From contig CAMDGU010000015.1 in NCBI GenBank assembly GCA_945897885.1, positions 1 through 56,168 on the forward strand: 56,168 bases of DNA, written 5' to 3'. A program made the translations under genes and the position numbers. This DNA is from Chitinophaga pinensis (GTDB lineage Bacteria; Bacteroidota; Bacteroidia; NS11-12g; UBA9320). Numbering within the stretch: position 1 is the stretch's first letter; each line of letters begins with the position of its first letter. The notes beneath the pieces are model-generated. The model was not told the DNA's origin. It made no database searches and saw only the letters and a list, made by a program, of their open reading frames with translations. Of the stretch, positions 991 to 45,962 are shown one piece after another.

Positions 991-1100
991 AGGTTGAGGT
1001 TGAGGTTAAGGTTGAGGTTAAGGTTAAGGTTGAGGTTGAGGTTAAGGTTGAGGTTAAGGTTGAGGTTAAGGTTGAGGTTAAGGTTAAGGTTGAGGTTGAG
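991..1100. repeat. YTRAGG hexamer array 1
   Basis: About 18 copies of a 6-bp unit, TTGAGG or TTAAGG on the plus strand. The array ends exactly at the second codon of the ATPase stump (high-coordinate side of 990) and abuts the stop of the RhuM gene at 1104. It is the low-coordinate boundary of the foreign block in the exporter operon. Confidence 0.95.
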
Positions 1101-1103
1101 TAT

Positions 1104-2084
1104 TTAGCTTAATCGCTTAAGAATTTCTTTGGCTGGTATTTCCATTTTGGAAAAAGCAAACCATTTTTTACCAAGGTCTTTTAACGATGCCCCAAAGTGA
1201 TACACAATTGATTCGTCAATTATGAGAAATCGATCGTGAGATTTATCAAAGGTATGCATTGCTATTTTTGAATACTGTATTTCAAATTTTTCAAGGTCCA
1301 ATTTCAATTTATCATTCGTTTTTTGTGTGTAAATATTTATTTTAACTGCGACTTTCCCTTTCGAAAGCATTACCAATACTGTTTCATCAATATAATTATC
1401 AATTAAATGTATGGATTTTTTTGCTGACTTGATTAATCCTGAGACGAATTGAAATGCATCGAAAACCTGACCATCAAAGAATATACCTTCAGTTGGAGGT
1501 AAATTGGTTCGTATAAGTAAATCAAATTTTTGCTCATGCTCATTAATTTTCTTTTCAACTCTCTCAATTCTTTGATGTATAGCATGGCCTTTTAATAAAA
1601 ACTCTTTTAAAATATTTGTAGCCCATATTCTGAATTGTGTACCCCTCTTTGATTTTACGCGATAACCTGTGGAAATAATTACATCCAAATTATACCTTTT
1701 TGTTTTATACTTTTTGCCATCGCTTGCAGTTAGTAAGGAATCCTTACATACTGAATTTTCTTCAAGCTCCCCTTCTTTAAAAATATTTGAAATATGTAAT
1801 GTAATATTGTTTCGGGTGGTCTTAAATAACTCTGACATTTGAGCTTGTGTTAACCATACTGTTTCATCTTCAACCCAAACTTCAATATGCGTTACTGTCG
1901 GTTCAGATGAATTGCTATCATTGTACAGCACTATTTCAGGAGAAGAAGGCAAGAGGTTGAGGTTAAGGTTAAGGTTGAGGTTAAGGTTGAGGTTAAGGTT
2001 AAGGTTAAGGTTAAGGTAAGGGTTGAGGTTGTAAATAACGTTGTTACTTTGCAATCTCCCAATGCCCACCTCTAAGAGGGCCAA
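1104..2084 (-). CDS. RhuM-type protein with PLD-like C-terminal domain
   Basis: From about residue 50 the protein has the RhuM/Fic-associated DNA-binding region (EIVLYND, then VWLTQAQMSELFKTTRNNIT, then YNLDVIISTGYRVKSKRGTQ), usual in phage- and island-borne proteins. The C-terminal third (SAKKSIHLIDNYID, then SHDRFLIIDESIVYHFGASL) resembles a phospholipase-D-like domain with one H-x-R-x4-D motif, an Arg variant of HKD. Residues ~20-45 are a Leu-Asn repeat translated from hexamer array 2, and no ATG exists upstream; the first possible start is TTG at 2082-2084. The native 5' end seems to have been replaced by the array. Function is not known; regulation or defence of a mobile element is possible. 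Expression is uncertain. Confidence 0.7.
   Translation of the reverse strand: MALLEVGIGRLQSNNVIYNLNPYLNLNLNLNLNLNLNLNLNLNLLPSSPEIVLYNDSNSSEPTVTHIEVWVEDETVWLTQAQMSELFKTTRNNITLHISNIFKEGELEENSVCKDSLLTASDGKKYKTKRYNLDVIISTGYRVKSKRGTQFRIWATNILKEFLLKGHAIHQRIERVEKKINEHEQKFDLLIRTNLPPTEGIFFDGQVFDAFQFVSGLIKSAKKSIHLIDNYIDETVLVMLSKGKVAVKINIYTQKTNDKLKLDLEKFEIQYSKIAMHTFDKSHDRFLIIDESIVYHFGASLKDLGKKWFAFSKMEIPAKEILKRLS
1953..2031. repeat. YTRAGG hexamer array 2
   Basis: About 13 hexamers, mostly TTAAGG and TTGAGG on the plus strand, with one irregular unit near 2016-2021. It lies inside the 5' part of the RhuM reading frame and is translated there as alternating Leu and Asn. Confidence 0.95.
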
Positions 2085-2678
2085 CTCTTTTAATAAAGTT
2101 TCTTTCTTTGAGTAGTTGGATATCGCGTTTTACGGTTGTTTGGCTTGAATTTGTTTGGATGGAAAGTTCAGGTATTGATACCTGATTGTTACTATTTATT
2201 AATTCCAATAGTAATTTAAACCTCTTTTCTTGACTGTTTTTAAGCTCATTTTTAAGCTCATTTTTAGGCTCATTTTTAGGCTCATCAGTTTTTTTGTTTA
2301 AAAAGGTTAATTGCATACCTCCGGCAAATTCATCTATTTCAAGTTTTGGAAGTCCTGCGTTTTTCATTGCATTATTTATTTTAGCTATGCCGCGGCCCCA
2401 TACTTCAATAAATCCTGCCCTAAAAAATAGTTCTGCTATATTTTTATTTCGTGGTCGCGAAGGATGTTTCCCATTAAGTTGTTAATATTCAAATCTTCGG
2501 GTAGTTTGCCTTCATTCCATAAAATTAGTTTATCATCATAAATACTCAATTGAATGGTAGTGCCGGTATAATCTTTATGCACAATGGCATTCAATATGGC
2601 TTCTCGCAATGCTTCTTCAGGATATTCAAGGTCTTCTATTCTTGATAAACCTTGATACCGAATAGGTGATTTCAAATA
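2044..2678 (-). pseudogene. AlbA_2/Schlafen-type ATP-binding regulator, truncated and frameshifted
   Basis: Two frames together make the C-terminal half of a known Bacteroidota family of putative transcriptional regulators with a GHKL-like ATPase domain. The first frame (2436-2675) has EEALREAILNAIVHKDYTG and LILWNEGKLPEDL. The second continues with HPSRPRNKNIAELFFRAGF and VWGRGIAKINNA, then into the 107-residue frame at 2044-2367 ending in a winged-helix-like segment (VSIPELSIQTNSSQTTVKRD). The frames join across about 2463-2478, where one base seems missing. The N-terminal AlbA_2 half is absent: the 5' edge abuts a copy of the ORF6N gene at 2681. Non-functional by both counts. Confidence 0.75.
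2241..2285. repeat. Four 12-bp tandem units
   Basis: Four near-identical 12-bp units (TAAGCTCATTTT or TAGGCTCATTTT) encode a PKNE/LKNE repeat in the linker of the broken ATP-binding gene. The unit length keeps the frame. Confidence 0.85.
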
Positions 2679-2680
2679 CT

Positions 2681-2805
2681 AGGATTATTTTTTACCGCTT
2701 CATTAATCCTTTTTGTTTCAACTTCATAAAAATCTGCAACATTATTGTCCAGAATTACCAATTGATTATTCAAGGTAATAATGTTTTCTTCAATTTGTTT
2801 AATTA
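2681..2805 (-). pseudogene. ORF6N gene fragment, second copy
   Basis: These 125 bp repeat 3685-3809, the beginning of the ORF6N gene, with no difference seen. The copy breaks off after about 40 codons and is fused at 2680/2681 to the broken ATP-binding gene. On its upstream side it is bounded by hexamer array 3, just as the full copy is bounded by array 5. Confidence 0.85.
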
Positions 2806-2868
2806 GGTTAAGGTTGAGGTTAAGGCTGAGGTTGAGGTTAAGGCTGAGGTTAAGGCTGAGGTTGAGGA
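2804..2868. repeat. YTRAGG hexamer array 3
   Basis: About ten units, TTAAGG, TTGAGG and CTGAGG on the plus strand. It covers the last codons (Pro-Gln repeats) and stop of IVP copy A and runs into the ORF6N fragment. Array 4 on the other side of the gene has opposite orientation, so the gene sits between inverted arrays. Confidence 0.9.
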
Positions 2869-3227
2869 CGGTTGTTTAAGGATTTAATTAGTTTGTTAAG
2901 TTCGTGTATCAGATTATCAATTTGTATAGTGATTAATTTACCTTGTTCATTAGTAAAATAATTAACCAAATTACCATAGATTAAATGGCTTTTTGTTTCG
3001 AAGGCACTGCCTCTGGAAATAATATAAAATTTCTTTTTGTCAGGTCCGGTTTCTCTTCCAAACCCTTCAGCAAGATTAGCGGAAATTGAAACTGCGGACC
3101 TTCTTATTTGACTTGTTAAGCCATAATCTTCGCTTCTTGGCAATGAAACTGTAATATCAAATATTTGTTTAGCTATGTCCATCGCTAATTTCCAAACCGG
3201 CATGTCTTCAAAACTCAAATATTTCAT
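2850..3227 (-). CDS. Four-helix-bundle protein (23S rRNA IVP family), copy A
   Basis: 125 residues with the IVP/S23 signature: FEDMPVWKLAMDIAKQIFDI near the start, then SEDYGLTSQIRRSAVSISAN and NLAEGFGRE. The family forms small four-helix bundles found in intervening sequences of 23S rRNA genes, as the Avd accessory protein of diversity-generating retroelements, and as orphan genes; they bind nucleic acid. The ATG at 3225-3227 is preceded by an AAGG supplied by array 4. The last residues (RPQPQP) and the stop are read from array 3. No reverse transcriptase or rRNA is near. Copy B at 3824-4207 differs by few residues. The family is sure, the role here unknown. Confidence 0.85.
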   Translation of the reverse strand: MKYLSFEDMPVWKLAMDIAKQIFDITVSLPRSEDYGLTSQIRRSAVSISANLAEGFGRETGPDKKKFYIISRGSAFETKSHLIYGNLVNYFTNEQGKLITIQIDNLIHELNKLIKSLNNRPQPQP

Positions 3228-3231
3228 AATT

Positions 3232-3278
3232 TCCTTAATCTTAGCCTTAACCTCAACCTTAACCTCAGCCTTAGTCTT
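3232..3278. repeat. YTRAGG hexamer array 4 (inverted orientation)
   Basis: About seven units reading CCTTAA, CCTCAA or CCTCAG on the plus strand, i.e. opposite to array 3. It fills the whole gap between the ORF6N stop at 3280 and the IVP copy A start at 3227. Confidence 0.9.
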
Positions 3279-3279
3279 A

Positions 3280-3777
3280 CTACTTTTTACCTTTTTTAAC
3301 TGTATGTTTAAACTTTAGCACTGCAAAATTAAGTTCAAAGGTTGTTTCAGTTCCAGTTAAAGATAGGTCATTTTCAAAAATTTCTGCAATCAATTCTCCA
3401 CTTCTTTGCATAATAGGTTGTTTTTGTTCTTCATTAGTTATAGCAGATAATTGATTAATATTTCTTCCTAATTCTCTTATTTTGGCAAATGCCTCAATAA
3501 TGGCAAGTGTTGCCTGGGTTGCACGTGGGCTTTTTAAAATAGTAGCCAACATATAAAGCCCCTTTTCAGGAAAGGCTTTAGGTGCTTTCGTTTTACCTCC
3601 TTTTAATGAAGTCGAAAATTTCGACTTCATTAAAAGCCAATCTTTTGGGCTTACTTCTACTATATAGCCTTCAGGGAATTTTTCAGGATTATTTTTTACC
3701 GCTTCATTAATCCTTTTTGTTTCAACTTCATAAAAATCTGCAACATTATTGTCCAGAATTACCAATTGATTATTCAA
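3280..3777 (-). CDS. ORF6N domain protein lacking a normal start
   Basis: Residues 3-60 match the ORF6N DNA-binding domain found in phage antirepressors and island genes (VILDNNVADFYEVETKRINE, then NNPEKFPEGYIVE), followed by KGLYMLATILKSPRAT and a helical tail ending in basic residues. The listed start is TTG (3775-3777). The same frame is open upstream through L-I-K-Q-I-E-E-N-I-I-T, which belongs to the domain, then through Leu-Asn/Leu-Ser codons of array 5 to a stop at 3856-3858, with no ATG. The natural start thus seems lost at the array. The first ~40 codons are duplicated at 2681-2805. Probably a mobile-element relic; expression is doubtful. Confidence 0.7.
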   Translation of the reverse strand: MNNQLVILDNNVADFYEVETKRINEAVKNNPEKFPEGYIVEVSPKDWLLMKSKFSTSLKGGKTKAPKAFPEKGLYMLATILKSPRATQATLAIIEAFAKIRELGRNINQLSAITNEEQKQPIMQRSGELIAEIFENDLSLTGTETTFELNFAVLKFKHTVKKGKK

Positions 3778-3807
3778 GGTAATAATGTTTTCTTCAATTT
3801 GTTTAAT

Positions 3808-3848
3808 TAGGTTGAGGTTGAGGTTAAGGCTGAGGCTGAGGTTGAGGA
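3808..3848. repeat. YTRAGG hexamer array 5
   Basis: About six or seven units (TTGAGG, TTAAGG, CTGAGG on the plus strand) covering the last codons of IVP copy B and joining it to the ORF6N frame. It is shorter than the equivalent array 3. Confidence 0.9.
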
Positions 3849-4207
3849 CGGTTGTTTAAGGATTTAATTAGTTTGTTAAGTTCGTGTATCAGATTGTCAA
3901 TTTGCACAGTGATCGATTTAACTTGTTCATTAGTAAAATAATTAACCAAATTACCATAGATTAAATGGCTTTTTGTTTCGAAGGCACTGCCTCTGGAAAT
4001 AATATAAAATTTCTTTTTGTCAGGTTCGGTTTCTCTTCCTAAACCTTCAGCAAGATTAGCAGAAATTGAAACTGCGGACCTTCTTATTTGACTTGTTAAG
4101 CCATAATCTTCGCTTCTTGGCAATGAAACTGTAATATCAAATATTTGTTTAGCTATGTCCATCGCTAATTTCCAAACCGGCATGTCTTCAAAACTTAAAT
4201 ATTTCAT
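3824..4207 (-). CDS. Four-helix-bundle protein (23S rRNA IVP family), copy B
   Basis: Nearly identical to copy A at 2850-3227, with the same FEDMPVWKLAMDIAKQIFDI and NLAEGLGRE segments. I choose the ATG at 4205-4207 because it equals the start of copy A. An upstream ATG at 4253-4255, inside the permease gene, would add 16 residues, among them E-V-E-V-K-V-E-V-K read from array 6, and is probably not native. The C-terminus (RPQPQPQP) and stop come from array 5. It directly follows the permease stop. The family is known to bind RNA or DNA; its job here is unknown. Confidence 0.85.
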   Translation of the reverse strand: MKYLSFEDMPVWKLAMDIAKQIFDITVSLPRSEDYGLTSQIRRSAVSISANLAEGLGRETEPDKKKFYIISRGSAFETKSHLIYGNLVNYFTNEQVKSITVQIDNLIHELNKLIKSLNNRPQPQPQP

Positions 4208-4212
4208 AATTT

Positions 4213-4242
4213 CCTTAACCTCAACCTTAACCTCAACCTCAG
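4213..4242. repeat. YTRAGG hexamer array 6 (inverted orientation)
   Basis: About five units reading CCTTAA or CCTCAA on the plus strand. On the coding (minus) strand the array begins with the TGA stop codon of the permease gene and ends six bases before the IVP ATG. It is the high-coordinate boundary of the foreign block. Confidence 0.9.
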
Positions 4243-5099
4243 ACGGTATCCACAAAACTCTTCTCCACTTTATTAAAAATTACGGTTCCAAGTATGAGAA
4301 CAATCGATGTAAAACAGACGGTATAAAGTAAGGAGGTCGCCGAAAAATCTCCCTTGCCTAATAAGGAAAACCTTAATCCTTCGATAATAGGAGCCATAGG
4401 ATTTAGGCCAATTATAAATTTATATTTTAAGGGGGCGGCACTCATAGGGTAAATTACCGGGGTAGCATACATAAATAATTGTACGCCAAAAGAAACTAAA
4501 AAAGATAAATCGCGGTATTTGGTGGTAAGTGCTGAAATAATCATTCCGAGGCCCAATCCTAAGCAAGCCATTAATATTAAGTAAACAGGAAGTAAAAGCA
4601 GGTAGGCTGATATATGGGGATTGTAATCTTTGAAAAGGATAAAGTAAACAAAAAGCAAAATGAGCATAATAAATTGAACCCCGAGTTTAACTAAATTGCT
4701 GGCCACAATGCTCAATGGCATTATCAATCGAGGAAAGTATACCTTACCAAAGATGTTGGCATTGTCTTTAAATACGGTGGATGTTTTGGTTAAACACTCT
4801 GCAAAATAACCCCATGCCACAATGCCAACCATATAAAATAAGGGTTGAGGTAAACCATCGGTGCTAATAGCTGCCAAGTTTCCAAAAATAAAAACAAAAG
4901 TAATGGTGGTAAATAAAGGCTGAATAAAAAACCAAAGTGGCCCAAGTATGGTTTGCTTATAAAACGAAACGAAATCGCGTTTTACCAATAAACCCAGCAA
5001 ATCCCTGTATCTCCAAACATCTTTTAGATTGAGTTTGAATAAAGAATTTTGAGGCTCAATGGTGAGATCCCATTCTTTGATGGCTTCGTCGTGGTTCAT
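4239..5099 (-). CDS. ABC-2 type polysaccharide export permease (Wzm/TagG-like)
   Basis: Inner-membrane permease of about 286 residues that would move a lipid-linked polysaccharide to the periplasm with a Wzt-type ATPase. The N-terminal cytoplasmic stretch (DVWRYRDLLGLLVKRDFVSF, then YKQTILGPLWFFIQPLF) is typical, followed by six hydrophobic segments and a short basic C-terminus. I start it at the ATG 5097-5099 (MNHDEAIKEW). The longer frame to 5273 merely translates the upstream repeat arrays (Asn-Leu-Gln-Thr-Pro-rich). The stop TGA is the first unit of array 6. Its ATPase, normally next, is now 3.2 kb away and truncated, so this exporter may be inactive or use an ATPase encoded elsewhere. 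Confidence 0.85.
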   Translation of the reverse strand: MNHDEAIKEWDLTIEPQNSLFKLNLKDVWRYRDLLGLLVKRDFVSFYKQTILGPLWFFIQPLFTTITFVFIFGNLAAISTDGLPQPLFYMVGIVAWGYFAECLTKTSTVFKDNANIFGKVYFPRLIMPLSIVASNLVKLGVQFIMLILLFVYFILFKDYNPHISAYLLLLPVYLILMACLGLGLGMIISALTTKYRDLSFLVSFGVQLFMYATPVIYPMSAAPLKYKFIIGLNPMAPIIEGLRFSLLGKGDFSATSLLYTVCFTSIVLILGTVIFNKVEKSFVDTV

Positions 5100-5236
5100 G
5101 TGGGTTGGGAGGTTTGGGGGTTGGGAGGTTTGGAGGTTTGGAGGTTTGGGGGTTTGGAGGTTTGGGGGTTGGGAGGTTGGAAGGTTTGGAGGTATGGAGG
5201 TTGGGAGGTTGGAATGTTTGGGGGTTTGGGGTTTGA
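5100..5236. repeat. G-rich 8-9-bp tandem repeat before the permease start
   Basis: Imperfect units GGTTTGGAG, GGTTTGGGG and GGTTGGGAG on the plus strand fill the space directly upstream of the permease ATG. G-runs at 5102-5125 fit the G3-N1-7 quadruplex rule on the template strand. It is a different repeat type from the neighbouring hexamers. Confidence 0.9.
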
Positions 5237-5262
5237 TTAACCTCAGCCTCAGCCTCAACCTT
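5237..5262. repeat. YTRAGG hexamer array 7 (inverted orientation)
   Basis: Four to five units (CCTCAG, CCTCAA on the plus strand). On the coding strand it starts inside the last codons of the epimerase: the stop TGA is part of GGTTGAGG. It shows that arrays occur at another gene border of this operon without any IVP gene. Confidence 0.85.
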
Positions 5263-6202
5263 TCATATACCAATCTATTGTGTTTTTTAAGCTTTCCGTA
5301 ATGTTTAATTGTTCTTTATAGGCCAATAATTCCTTCGCTTTTGTAATATCCGCCAGGCTAAACAGAATATCGCCTTTTCGGTTTGGGCCGTGGGTTGCAT
5401 CGCTAGTAGCTTTGCTGATGGTTTTTATCATTTGCCACAGGTCGTTTAAGCTGGTGGTGTTGCCACAGGCTACATTTACCACTTCGTGTTTTAAGGATTC
5501 TAAGGGCAGGGTTAATCCGTTGATATTGATTTGAACCACATTTTCAACCGGTGTAAAATCGCGGGTAATGGTTCCATCACCGTTTATTAAAGGACTTTCA
5601 TTATTGAGGGCTGCTTTAACAAATAATGGAATAACGGCAGCATAAGGTCCTTCAGGATCCTGCTTGGGCCCAAATACATTAAAATACCGAAATCCGATAA
5701 GGGTCATATTGTAGTTTTTGGCATAGGCCTCTGCATATAATTCGTTAGCCATTTTGGTGGCGGCATAAGGTGATAAAACTTTTCCTACTCTATTTTCCAC
5801 TTTTGGCGAATCTGTCAAATCACCGTAAACCGAGGAGGAGGACGCATAAACTATCCGCTTGATATTGTTATTTCTGCCTGCTTCCAGTATATTTAAAAAT
5901 CCGTTAACGTTTACATCGTGCGACGTTAAAGGGTCGTTGATACTTCTTGGAACCGAACCTAACGCCGCTTGATGACTAATGGCATCTATTCCTTCACATG
6001 CTTTATTGCAATCTTCCGGATTTCTAATATCACCTTCTATAAACTGAAATTTTGGATTGGAATTAAATTCAGAAAGATTACTTAAATGGCCGGTAGCTAA
6101 ATTATCAAAAACCCTAACTAAAGAAATACTTTCGTTTTTTAGTAATGCTGCTGTAAGGTTAGAGCCTATAAATCCTGCACCGCCGGTAATTAGTATTTTC
6201 AT
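5255..6202 (-). CDS. NAD-dependent UDP-sugar epimerase (SDR, WbpP/GalE-like)
   Basis: Extended short-chain dehydrogenase of 315 residues that probably interconverts C4 epimers of a UDP-hexose(-amine or -uronate) for capsule or exopolysaccharide synthesis. Visible are the NAD-binding GGAGFIGS (residues 7-14), the SSSSVYG segment and the catalytic Y146-x3-K150 in SPYAATK. The FRYFNVFGPKQDPEGPYAAV stretch is closest in my reading to UDP-GlcNAc/GlcNAcA epimerases of the WbpP/TviC type, but substrate cannot be fixed by eye. It fits with the UDP-sugar dehydrogenase at 6875-8155. The stop codon coincides with hexamer array 7. Confidence 0.85.
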   Translation of the reverse strand: MKILITGGAGFIGSNLTAALLKNESISLVRVFDNLATGHLSNLSEFNSNPKFQFIEGDIRNPEDCNKACEGIDAISHQAALGSVPRSINDPLTSHDVNVNGFLNILEAGRNNNIKRIVYASSSSVYGDLTDSPKVENRVGKVLSPYAATKMANELYAEAYAKNYNMTLIGFRYFNVFGPKQDPEGPYAAVIPLFVKAALNNESPLINGDGTITRDFTPVENVVQININGLTLPLESLKHEVVNVACGNTTSLNDLWQMIKTISKATSDATHGPNRKGDILFSLADITKAKELLAYKEQLNITESLKNTIDWYMKG

Positions 6203-8155: not shown

Positions 8156-10620
8156 TAATTTTTGAAAATATTTTTTAGGCGGCTAATTATAGATTTGCCT
8201 TTTCGGCTTTTTTCATCCTCAGCATAGTAACCATAACCATAACCGTAACCATAACCGTAACCGTAACCATAACCGTAACCGTAACCGTAACCATAACCGT
8301 AACCATAACCATAACCATAACCATAACCATAACCGTATTTGGCTCCTGTAAATGTGGTATCGTTTAGGATAATTCCCATATTTTTTATACCACGATTTTC
8401 ATAAAACTCATTTGCGAAATCTAAGGAACTTGTTTGTGTAAATCCCTCACGCATTACATAAATATTCAAATCGGAATAATTCATTAAATCTACAGCATCG
8501 GTTACCAATCCTAATGGAGCTGTATCTAAAAATATATATTGATATCGTTTCTTTAGTTCGCTAAGGCATTCGGCCATTTCAGGACTTAATATTAATTCCG
8601 ACGGATTGGGAGGAACAGGGCCTGAAGGAATAATATCAAGATTATTGATATCTGTTTTATGAATGATGGAATCAAGGCTCGCCTTTTTTACAAGGTAATT
8701 GCTTATACCAATTTCATTTTTGATGTTAAAGCTTAAATGCAATCTTGGCTTGCGCAAATCAAGTCCTATAATTAACACTTTACATTGTAAATAACAGAAC
8801 GATTGTGCAATATTTAGGGTACAAAATGTTTTCCCCTCACCACCTATTGTTGACGTAACCAATATAACTTTTGATGCAGTATCTCCTTTTAACATAAAAG
8901 TAATGTTGGTTCTTAAATTTCTAAAGGATTCCGACATCATGGATTTTGAATTTTCAGTAAATACTAACTGGTTCTCTGAAATATTGTGCGGAATAGCTGC
9001 CAAAAAAGGAATTTTTGTTTTACTATCAATTTGATCTCTGCTTCGCAGTTTGTTGTCAAAATATATTTTAAAAAAGATATACAATGCGGGTATAACTAGC
9101 CCTAATAGTGCCCCTGTGGCATAATTCTTTTTAGTATCTGGTTTTGTCCTTCCCACAACCTCGGCCTCGTCTAATACCGAATAATCGCTTTTATTTCCGG
9201 AGCGGGCTATCTCATATTCAAATTTTTTCTCAAGCAGTAAAATATAAAGTTTTTCCTGCACGTTGAACTTCCTACTCATACCTAAATTTTTTCTTTCCAG
9301 CGAAGGAAGTTTGGTTATTTGACTGGTCAGTTTGCTTAAAGCATTTTTGTAGGAATCAAGAATACTGCTATTGGTTTTTAATATATTTTTAATGATATCA
9401 ACCAGCGACCTCTTAGCCCTTTCCACATTTTCTTTTGCCTGATTGAATTGAATAGTTCCGGCACTATACGCCAGATTAATTCTTTTAAATTCGATGTAGG
9501 AGGTTTTTACATTTTCAATCATTGGTATAAGGAGCGGGTCGGTTATTCCCATGGTTGATGGTGCAAGGTTTGAAAAATCGTCTTGCGTTTCGATATACAT
9601 TAACAGTTTGCGGATTCTACTTTGCATTATTTCCATTTCCTGCAAGGTGTGTTCTAGTAAATTTTTATCCGAAAAAAGCAGTGCACTTTCATCAGGAAGG
9701 TTTACAAAACCATTATCTTTTTTAAATTTTTCAAGATTAAATTCGGAATTATCGAGTTCGTTTTCAATTTTAAAGAGTTGTTCATTGATGAAAACTACAG
9801 AATTATTAAATTTTTCATTTTTATCATTTAATCCTTTTTCAACAAAATTGCTGGAAATTAAATTAAGAATATCCCTTGCACGGTTTGTCTCAGGGCATTC
9901 CATCGAAATTTGAAGCGCCTTGGTGTTTTTTAAATTGTTAATATTTAGTGAACCTGAGAGTGTTTTAGCTGCACTTTCAATACTTGTAAGTTTTAAAATA
10001 ATTTCCTGACTAGTCTCACCTTTTAAATTTACCTCGCCATTGGGATTTACTATTAAAACAAGATCGTTTAGATAAACTGAGTCGTTGTAAGCAATGTTTT
10101 TTTTGTTGAAAATGATTTTATCGCCTGATTTTACTTTTAAATCAAAAAGAGATTTATTGGGTATAAAATGATACGAGTTGCCATAAGCATTTTCAGATTT
10201 AATTCTTACTTTTACTTCAAATGGCAAGCTTTTAGAATAAACTTCCGTTGTTTTTATATTTCCTATTAAATAAAATGTTTTATTTATTTCAAGTTCTTTA
10301 ACAACATTTGTTAAAAATGCTTTGGATTTTATAATGGAAATTTTGTCATTAATAAAAGTTGGGTCCCATTGATTAAAAGTTTCGCTAAAACCTGCTGCGC
10401 CCATTATTTCTGCACCTTCTCTACCTTTTTGTGTATTCGTAAGTAATACTTCTGATTTTACGTTATAAATGGGCGTGGTATACCGATTAATTAGATAAAC
10501 GTCAAACAATGCTATCGAAATACAAATCATAAATAAATGCCAATAAGCCTTTAAAATGGCTATGATGGCTTTAATATTTATGCCCTGATTGGATTGTTCT
10601 TGATATGGCGATTCTTCCAT
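8155..10620 (-). CDS. Wzc-like polysaccharide co-polymerase / BY-kinase
   Basis: Inner-membrane protein of 821 residues controlling polymer length and export. A Wzz-like N-terminal region has one membrane helix near residues 27-48; a long periplasmic coiled part follows, then a second helix near 501-520. The cytoplasmic kinase has Walker A GGEGKT (593-598), Walker A' IIGLDLRKPR (617-626) and Walker B YIFLDT (695-700). The C-terminus, normally a short tyrosine cluster that is autophosphorylated, is here an uninterrupted Tyr-Gly repeat of about 18 units from residue 762, followed by a basic end. Its start touches the stop of the Wza-like gene and its stop touches the dehydrogenase start, so it is central in the operon. 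Confidence 0.9.
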   Translation of the reverse strand: MEESPYQEQSNQGINIKAIIAILKAYWHLFMICISIALFDVYLINRYTTPIYNVKSEVLLTNTQKGREGAEIMGAAGFSETFNQWDPTFINDKISIIKSKAFLTNVVKELEINKTFYLIGNIKTTEVYSKSLPFEVKVRIKSENAYGNSYHFIPNKSLFDLKVKSGDKIIFNKKNIAYNDSVYLNDLVLIVNPNGEVNLKGETSQEIILKLTSIESAAKTLSGSLNINNLKNTKALQISMECPETNRARDILNLISSNFVEKGLNDKNEKFNNSVVFINEQLFKIENELDNSEFNLEKFKKDNGFVNLPDESALLFSDKNLLEHTLQEMEIMQSRIRKLLMYIETQDDFSNLAPSTMGITDPLLIPMIENVKTSYIEFKRINLAYSAGTIQFNQAKENVERAKRSLVDIIKNILKTNSSILDSYKNALSKLTSQITKLPSLERKNLGMSRKFNVQEKLYILLLEKKFEYEIARSGNKSDYSVLDEAEVVGRTKPDTKKNYATGALLGLVIPALYIFFKIYFDNKLRSRDQIDSKTKIPFLAAIPHNISENQLVFTENSKSMMSESFRNLRTNITFMLKGDTASKVILVTSTIGGEGKTFCTLNIAQSFCYLQCKVLIIGLDLRKPRLHLSFNIKNEIGISNYLVKKASLDSIIHKTDINNLDIIPSGPVPPNPSELILSPEMAECLSELKKRYQYIFLDTAPLGLVTDAVDLMNYSDLNIYVMREGFTQTSSLDFANEFYENRGIKNMGIILNDTTFTGAKYGYGYGYGYGYGYGYGYGYGYGYGYGYGYGYGYGYGYYAEDEKSRKGKSIISRLKNIFKN
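8226..8337. repeat. (GGTTAY)n microsatellite coding a Tyr-Gly tail
   Basis: Eighteen AACC-containing hexamers on the plus strand (AACCAT or AACCGT) encode the Tyr-Gly tail of the BY-kinase. Each unit is two codons, so gain or loss changes the number of tyrosines without breaking the frame. Synonymous TAC/TAT mixing shows it is not freshly expanded from a single unit. Confidence 0.95.
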
Positions 10621-37541: not shown

Positions 37542-37849
37542 TGTTTTTGAATTTAAGTTTAGTGGGAGATTTTTAATGTCAAAATATTAAGTTGAACCAC
37601 ATAGAAGCGTAGTAACATAGAAAATCACATAGATAAATGAAATGAAAACAGACTATGCTAATCCTTAAATAACTATATGCCTATGTGGTTTGTGTTTTTG
37701 AATTTAAGTTTAGTGAGAGATTTTTTTAATGTCAAAATATTAAGTTGAACCACATAGAAGCATAGTAACATAGAAAATCACATAGGTAAAAGTACATGAA
37801 TAAAGCTATGTGAATCCTTAAATAACTATGTGCCTATGTGGTTTGTGTT
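37542..37849. repeat. Two tandem ~150-bp units with inverted ends
   Basis: Unit 1 (37542-37690) and unit 2 (37691-37849) are near-identical. Each carries AACCACATAG near its left side and CTATGTGGTT at its right end (37595-37604 with 37681-37690 in unit 1), so each can fold into a hairpin. Unit 2 ends just before the DAO gene and adds a false upstream ATG to it. Confidence 0.85.
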
Positions 37850-37892
37850 TATTAGTTTCCTATATGGCTTTTCATTTCATATTTTCGCGGTA

Positions 37893-45777: not shown

Positions 45778-45808
45778 ACTTCAAAAGTAAAACAAAAAAT
45801 GAAAATTC

Positions 45809-45962
45809 AGTCAGTAAACTGACTGAATTAATGTAAATTTAGTCAATAGGGTGACTGAATTAACGAAAATTGCTATAAAATGACTGAATGGAAAGTGGCA
45901 AAAAATCAAAATTTTGTCACTGCACTGACTGAATTAATGTAAAATTAGTCAGTTCACTGATC
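45809..45962. promoter_or_regulatory. Array of five AGTCA-N6-TGACT palindromes
   Basis: Sites at 45809-45824 and 45841-45856 (clear), 45870-45885 (right half only), 45915-45930 (nearly complete) and 45947-45962 (left half good). Most are followed by GAATTAA-G-AAA, giving a 29-45-bp period. The array lies between the DUF4143 ATPase start (45777) and the OsmC stop (45976), both on the minus strand. Looks like multiple operator sites or a short repeat element. Confidence 0.65.

Follow-up and report, generated by a model that had tools for sequence, protein, structure and literature searches.

Inverted arrays of short tandem repeats around PF05635 genes: probable small intercistronic elements related to 23S rRNA intervening sequences in Bacteroidota

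Results

The stretch of DNA analyzed here (the window) comprises the 56,168 nucleotides of contig CAMDGU010000015.1 from a genome assigned to Chitinophaga pinensis (assembly GCA_945897885.1), in which seven arrays of a 6-nt unit are interspersed with genes of a polysaccharide exporter and two copies of a gene of the four-helix-bundle family PF05635, all of them on the minus strand. In the direction of transcription, a gene that we take from its sequence to encode an NAD-dependent epimerase (5255-6202) precedes the ABC-2 permease of the exporter (4239-5099; PF01061), which is followed by two units of the same construction. The first, element B, begins with array 6 (4213-4242), continues with a PF05635 gene (3824-4207) and closes with array 5 (3808-3848), which contains the last codons and the stop of that gene and lies ahead of an ORF6N-domain gene. 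The second, element A, begins after the ORF6N stop with array 4 (3232-3278) and carries a PF05635 gene (2850-3227) that is 96.8% identical in DNA to that of element B across the domain, followed by array 3 (2804-2868). The other arrays are array 7 (5237-5262), at the stop codon of the epimerase gene (TGA, 5255-5257), array 2 (1953-2031), before a RhuM-family gene, and array 1 (991-1100, about 18 units), before an N-terminal stump (793-990) that had no Pfam match at E 0.001 and keeps the name of exporter ATPase from the preliminary description of this DNA.

The positions returned by Tandem Repeats Finder (TRF; 991-1100, 1954-2030, 2805-2867, 3233-3273, 3809-3847, 4213-4241 and 5241-5261) agree with those given in the preliminary description, and three successive TYARCC units with at most one mismatch were matched 46 times in the window, always inside the seven arrays (one match extends 2 nt beyond array 6), with 0 matches expected from 100 dinucleotide-preserving shuffles. 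It had also been noted that arrays 6 and 7 begin within the preceding TGA and that array 1 ends at the second codon of the ATPase stump; the two arrays indeed include the stops of the permease (...GTC TGA GG) and the epimerase (...GGT TGA GG), and the TTG start of the stump directly abuts the end of array 1. What had been overlooked is that the arrays change orientation and pair around a known protein family. On the coding strand the post-stop arrays 4, 6 and 7 are G-rich (GGTTRA), and arrays 1, 2, 3 and 5, which precede starts or gene remnants, are C-rich (TYAACC). Moreover, arrays 3 and 4 (48 nt, 85% complementary) and arrays 5 and 6 (29 nt, 90% complementary) form inverted pairs, each enclosing one copy of the PF05635 gene. 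The two pairs are not independent observations, because 2681-3128, in a further point overlooked before, is a tandem duplicate of 3685-4108 (direct-repeat pieces 95% and 98% identical), which also explains the near identity of the two genes. Arrays 3 to 6 thus directly display an element made of G-rich tandem units, a PF05635 gene and the same units inverted, which spans the distance from stop to start in the direction of transcription. We assign a probability of roughly 0.6 to the reading that the arrays of the window are the arms, paired or leftover, of such small intercistronic elements, to which the intervening sequences (IVS) of 23S rRNA are related.

The PF05635 genes of the window (Pfam E 2.5e-32 in element B, and 2.1e-31; NCBIfam TIGR02436) are annotated as 23S rRNA-intervening sequence protein. 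The AlphaFold model of the element B protein, with a predicted local distance difference test (pLDDT) of 95.4, matched the S23p structures 2GSC and 2RLD and then Avd (4DWL) and the ribonucleoprotein of a diversity-generating retroelement (DGR; 8UBE) with a template modeling (TM) score of 0.79, and a sequence search of the Protein Data Bank with alignment A1 matched 2gsc (E 1.9e-30). The family was present in 157 of 198 sampled Bacteroidota genomes, with 868 matches; to our knowledge it has no known role, and scans of the two window proteins against PHROGs and PADLOC gave no matches. The likeness to Avd, which is also stated in PMC10053308, would suit an element in which PF05635 is the Avd-like partner of a reverse transcriptase (RT) that writes the repeat units in trans. 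However, no RVT_1 match (Pfam model only) was found in 87 of the 157 genomes with PF05635, the window's genome being among the 87, as is one in which PF05635 is matched 16 times, and RVT_1 was similarly frequent in genomes with the family (70/157) and without it (14/41, p 0.29). An RT in the cell seems not to be needed for PF05635, and RT in trans, unsupported by the RVT_1 counts across the 198 genomes, is among the least probable of the explanations considered here.

The same flank anatomy was found around PF05635 genes far beyond the window. The loci comprised 85 usable cases from the taxonomic family of the window's genome (96 domain rows before removal of duplicates and of truncated or N-rich flanks), 30 from the phylum and 78 from named genomes (the best 80 of 568 relatives, of which L297 and L324 were dropped), 193 in all. 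The upstream flank of each gene was scored against the reverse complement of its downstream flank, and flanks swapped between elements served as control. Median scores of own and swapped flanks were 21 and 12 in the strong family set (36 of 60 loci above the 95% level of the swaps), 19 and 12 in the weak family set (13 of 25), 18 and 11 in the phylum set (16 of 30), 19 and 11 in the named Bacteroidota (30 of 59) and 17 and 11 in the other named records (8 of 19). For the housekeeping gene Pth the medians were 11 and 10, with 1 of 30 loci above the level, and the neighbouring open reading frames (ORFs) of the family loci had a median of 13 with 99% at 23.7 (n=166). In a stringent test restricted to PF05635 loci with co-directional neighbours on both sides, inverted arms exceeded the 95% swap level in 101 of 136 cases, and by a third scoring the flanks matched beyond it in 142 of the 193. 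In the window's own genome, a further PF05635 gene (on C38) lies between the stop of a glycosyltransferase gene and the next ATG and has inverted arms of a different unit.

The eight records above the level that are not labelled Bacteroidota carry the labels Chlorobiota, Anaerolineaceae, Thermodesulfobacteriota, Terriglobia, Acidobacteriaceae, Atribacteria, Pirellulales and Balneola (L315), and arms were seen by eye only in SAR324, a cyanobacterium, Omnitrophota and Fibrobacter. Two loci, labelled Limnohabitans (L313, below the swap level) and Balneola (L315), have PF05635 borders like those of Bacteroidota, the flanks of L315 resembling those of L181, and are probably misbinned contigs. A SAR324 contig with a PF05635 gene also carries a cobalamin riboswitch (L349:5079-5268).

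The repeat unit is not specific, a point that the preliminary description had also missed. Among 54 scored arms of the stringent test the repeat lag was 7 nt in 39, 8 nt in 12 and 6 nt in 2, so that the 6-nt unit of the window is a minority form; units differ between loci, and the two ends of one element tend to share a unit. Nor is the anatomy confined to PF05635: GxxExxY genes (PF13366; 28 loci left of 30 after removal of truncated loci or very short matches) scored 19 for own and 12 for swapped flanks, with 21 of 28 above the 95% level, and are a second, unrelated family of small cargo. RhuM was examined as a candidate for further cargo, and among its loci (19 left of 25 by the same rule) 1 exceeded the level, the Pfam domain starting well inside the protein, so that the upstream flank is coding sequence.

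The fit to gene borders is also a property of the class. Among the stringent arms, the left arm starts at most 6 nt from the upstream stop in 43 of 101 elements (10.5 under uniform placement) and the right arm ends at most 6 nt from the ATG in 30 of 101 (12.6 under uniform placement). Neighbours on both sides are co-directional far more often than opposed (58:2 of 85, with 11 mixed and 14 unresolved; 26:0 of 30 and 57:4 of 78, the remainder mixed or unresolved), and the same holds for GxxExxY genes (24:0 of 28). Left arms are G-rich rather than C-rich in ratios of 39:2 and 15:1, with a weaker bias in the weak PF05635 set (8:5) and in GxxExxY (12:9).

The border between fadA and an acyl-CoA dehydrogenase gene presents this class in several states. 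Out of 30 family loci 23 were readable, the other seven having no recognizable thiolase end or start motif. The border is empty in 12 of the 23, the window's genome included, with spacers of 4-57 nt, and filled in 9 by a PF05635 element of 452-565 nt; scars remain in G013, where 152 nt of inverted arms have lost the gene, and in G027, where 232 nt include an apparent 3' remnant of it, as judged by eye. Empty, filled and scar states thus occur at one border. Of the filled loci 8 of 9, and of the empty ones 2 of 12, have TAG as the upstream stop, as if it belonged to the arm, a comparison that is descriptive only, the genomes being related. By eye the spacers showed no target-site duplication, for which no systematic test was made.

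Different PF05635 proteins also occupy one border in congeneric genomes, which demonstrates turnover. Between L036 and L046 (G022 and G019) the protein ends flanking the fadA-dehydrogenase element are 92.5% and 77.5% identical and the PF05635 proteins 47%. At the fadB-fadA border, the protein of G004 is 88% identical to that of the G006 element at the next border, and G005 and G006 have there a different protein and a different unit from G004; in one genome, two borders of a single operon carry elements that are related. The ratio of nonsynonymous to synonymous rates (dN/dS) was 0.04-0.37 in 12 of 12 pairs, which indicates purifying selection on the protein. Inverted ends, a cargo gene and presence/absence polymorphism are what a cut-and-paste transposon, or one like a miniature inverted-repeat transposable element (MITE), would show if the arms were its terminal inverted repeats and the transposase acted in trans. 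Against this, the ends of different elements score near background when compared with each other and thus have no conserved sequence by which they would be likely to be recognized; the copies found within one genome differ from each other, and Pfam and NCBIfam scans of ten window ORFs returned no transposase. We therefore consider such a transposon very improbable.

The two arms of an element appear to evolve together, staying matched while their unit drifts. At the 17 borders common to at least 2 of 115 elements, own arms matched better than arms swapped within the site in 41 of 59 elements (p 1.3e-6) and did not in 18. Block-shuffling of the units lowered the mean arm match in all 27 arms with a clear period and a stringent score of at least 14, significantly at the 5% level in 12; unit variants thus seem to follow each other in mirrored order in the two arms, as copying of entire arms would produce. 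One way to keep arms complementary would be processing of the kind known from IVS, in which the two arms would form a stem within the polycistronic mRNA, RNase III would cleave this stem and so release the PF05635 segment, and selection on the stem would render the element harmless in operons. Such processing would agree with the protein family and the terminal stem shared with the 23S IVS excised by RNase III (PMC4990558), with the mostly forward orientation of the elements, with own arms folding more stably than swapped ones in 147 of 193 cases and with the RNA fold of 3779-4248 in the window, which closes on the stem of arrays 5 and 6 (z -6.4). Nevertheless, in the imperfect arm pairs of 142 of the 193 elements, G.U pairs are not enriched over A.C mismatches (122 vs 232, with a swap baseline of 179 vs 208), and the sense fold is more stable than the antisense fold in only 88 of 193 (p 0.07). 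Selection for an RNA stem is unsupported by either comparison, which makes this kind of processing unlikely. The depletion of G.U together with the lack of a sense advantage favors instead a process at the level of DNA, such as fold-back copying with slippage, and the pairing of the arms looks like a property of the DNA and not like a selected mRNA stem. In yeast, a fold-back mechanism has been described that produces templated inverted duplications at breaks (PMC11724301).

Hexamer arrays were further surveyed in the genus, where 33 arrays of at least four exact units, from 28 loci in five genomes, were classified and 14 loci read by eye. Solo arrays seen by eye are G-rich after stops (L392-L395, L401) and C-rich before starts (L397, L026), and some further arrays lie in the first or last codons of genes (L028, L389, L396); such solo arrays may be relics or independent expansions. 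At L389 the array forms part of a signal peptide (STSTST), and at L031:2470-3858 an array lies in frame within a glycosyltransferase gene, to which it adds an LNLNLN tract. Mostly solo and partly in-frame arrays of this kind are what would be expected of plain microsatellites, which expand by slippage wherever coding tolerates it and so gather at gene ends, with PF05635 as an incidental neighbour. Slippage by itself leaves unexplained the inverted matching of flanks, the locus-specific units common to both sides, the G-rich left arms and the mirrored order of units, and the pattern is nearly absent at Pth, so that we regard this explanation as quite improbable.

Array 7 is a G-rich solo arm after the epimerase stop with no PF05635 gene downstream; the rest of the epimerase-permease gap, up to the permease ATG, is occupied by an array of an 8-nt unit of another type (5103-5235, minus strand; CCAAACCY on the coding strand), a C-rich right arm. 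This border therefore has two unmatched arms and is perhaps a recombinant of two elements. In the congener G006 a GGTTGA arm is kept at the same border and is followed by C-rich arrays of other units, and its permease, 95% identical, has downstream a different set of genes, which were named by eye as MNT/HEPN-like and RhuM. In the window, the ORF6N-domain gene (3280-3777; PF10543) and the RhuM-family gene (1104-1952; PF13310) match the PADLOC candidate defense group PDC-S05. A 5' fragment of a second ORF6N copy (2681-2803) marks the end of the tandem duplication, remnants of an ATP-binding and helix-turn-helix (HTH) regulator lie in two frames at 2044-2675 (PF13749, below its cut-off; PF08220/PF08279), and array 2, a C-rich arm, reads in frame as LNLNLN in the N-terminal extension of RhuM. 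With RhuM and ORF6N here and the MNT/HEPN-like genes in G006, the border after the permease may be one at which small accessory genes preferentially collect.

Other repeats of the window lie outside this locus. A TAACCA array at 8228-8334, in the coding end of a tyrosine-kinase-like exporter gene, is read as YGYGYG, a tract that G006 shares (L159). Between a divergent gene pair (37542-37850) lies a 153-bp tandem duplication with ACATAGA units, which resemble arms that flank certain GxxExxY genes at other loci (L207). A 32-nt tandem repeat in three copies (45798-45889), located upstream of an ATPase-like gene, has a unit that looks self-complementary.

Discussion

The preliminary description knew of no described element with the properties of the arrays, and here the published IVS of 23S rRNA in Coxiella, Leptospira and others must be set against it, although these do not already explain the intercistronic case. 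The IVS of the Coxiella 23S rRNA contains an ORF for S23p, has 28-bp terminal inverted repeats and is excised by RNase III, and Coxiella strains differ in how many heptamer tandem repeats precede the ORF (PMC4990558). Our elements likewise encode an S23p/PF05635 protein and are closed as a stem by terminal inverted repeats. They differ in lying between the stop and start codons of operons and not in a helix of 23S rRNA, with no Rfam match in the window and no rRNA in the 20 loci not labelled Bacteroidota, and in having an arm unit that varies from element to element. The elements probably work like the 23S IVS and are probably kin to them, but we do not file them as IVS.

A second likeness is to the TAACTGA repeats of Beggiatoaceae, Cyanobacteria and some Bacteroidetes, which are tandem 7-nt units, mostly intergenic, that end just upstream of start codons (PMC4679880). 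The 7-nt lag found in 39 of the 54 scored arms and the tendency of right arms to end at starts recall these repeats, and arms like TAACTGA were seen by eye in L311 and L319. In contrast to our arms, they are described in PMC4679880 as direct repeats of one unit, without paired arms around a gene, and the terms "23S", "intervening" and "four helix" occur 0 times in the main text of that article. Besides, our units are not conserved between loci and drift at shared sites, and the left arm after the stop has no counterpart in the explanation of those repeats. An explanation of our arms along the lines of those repeats is the least probable of those considered here; what we propose is a link between the TAACTGA repeats and our right arms.

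Other known classes fit less well. The PF05635 protein shares the four-helix-bundle fold with Avd (TM 0.79 to 4DWL), but the window's genome has no RVT_1 match, in contrast to what a DGR would carry. Foldback or MITE-like elements have inverted arms of short tandem repeats, and the long simple-sequence repeats of prokaryotes are made of tandem short units. Unlike these, our elements have no conserved ends, carry a conserved protein-coding cargo and have a unit of their own in each element. As regards transposons with terminal inverted repeats and MITEs, the end sequence is unconserved between copies and no transposase lies in the element (ten window ORFs); as regards simple-sequence repeats, the arrays are not independent of each other, own flanks matching best. 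In open-access PubMed Central, that is, leaving aside subscription papers and preprints, our searches gave no paper that connects genes of either family, PF05635 or GxxExxY, with arms of inverted tandem repeats.

Several results weigh against the reading of the arrays as arms of IVS-related elements, beginning with the hexamer itself. Of the 33 arrays surveyed in the genus, 11 were flagged as lying within open frames (a count that includes array 2, in the RhuM extension, and one frame that is short and probably spurious), and of the 27 found outside the window only one, at L132, has a PF05635 gene nearby, as judged from 18 of the 28 loci (17 and the window), the other arrays lying on contigs without a PF05635 match; the hexamer therefore also spreads or persists without the element. 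The preliminary statement that the arrays sit exactly at gene borders is accordingly true of the seven in the window but not of all such arrays; likewise, the insertion or expansion tied to intercistronic borders that it proposed is borne out for the element class by the fit to stops and ATG codons, and for the bare hexamer only in part. In the flank tests, 50 of 115 loci were not above the 95% swap level in the looser version and 35 of 136 in the stringent one, the Pth control was itself slightly above its own swaps (p 0.03), and RNA duplex energies separated own from swapped flanks less well, with 5 of 30 Pth loci below the 5% level. The 193 loci include orthologues and hence are not independent, in addition to the two that look misbinned, and the arms of the mirrored-order test were chosen by their own score, so that part of the excess is regression to the mean. 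As for mobility, 50 of the 59 elements of shared borders have their nearest PF05635 relative at the border that they themselves occupy, so that most elements are old and inherited, and recent copies within a genome are rare, only two pairs among the family loci exceeding 80% DNA identity (the tandem pair of the window, 96.8%, and a pair in G004, 81.9%). No transposase, integrase or target duplication was identified, the last without a systematic test, and active transposition is not shown.

On the reading of the arrays as arms of IVS-related elements, we suggest that an element would enter an intercistronic gap as one unit, and that its arms would grow by slippage and be kept alike by copying of one from the other when folded back in single-stranded DNA. 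The arms would overwrite the native spacer until halted by the coding sequence on each side, from which the fit from stop to start would follow, and the S23p/Avd-like protein may bind nucleic acid and so aid the persistence or movement of the element. In the window, a single element may have entered the permease-ATPase border and then been duplicated in tandem, its arms hosting later changes such as the arrival of ORF6N and RhuM and the loss of parts of the ATPase and the regulator. Arrays 1, 2 and 7 would have the same origin, which is something we infer and do not observe, the hexamer arrays elsewhere being mostly solo.

A broader hypothesis, tentative and rather doubtful at present, is that of a pan-bacterial class of elements whose ends are defined as a pair of short-unit arrays of any unit that rewrite each other, with at least two unrelated kinds of small protein, S23p/Avd-like PF05635 and PD-(D/E)XK-like GxxExxY, as cargo, inserted from stop to start in operons. 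A break in the gap might supply two 3' ends at which the arms of such elements are synthesized, or the arms might arise by fold-back copying, and the 23S IVS and the TAACTGA arrays might be members or relics of the class.

Taken together, these results tie PF05635 to paired, co-evolving arms and thereby turn a protein family into a testable element with defined boundaries. They join an oddity of rRNA, the IVS, with inserts at operon borders and suggest an explanation for the intergenic heptamer repeats reported earlier. If true, such elements would preserve their identity in a manner unusual for DNA elements, through ends that remain matched as their sequence changes, and would provide a natural test system for bacterial fold-back (quasipalindrome) copying.

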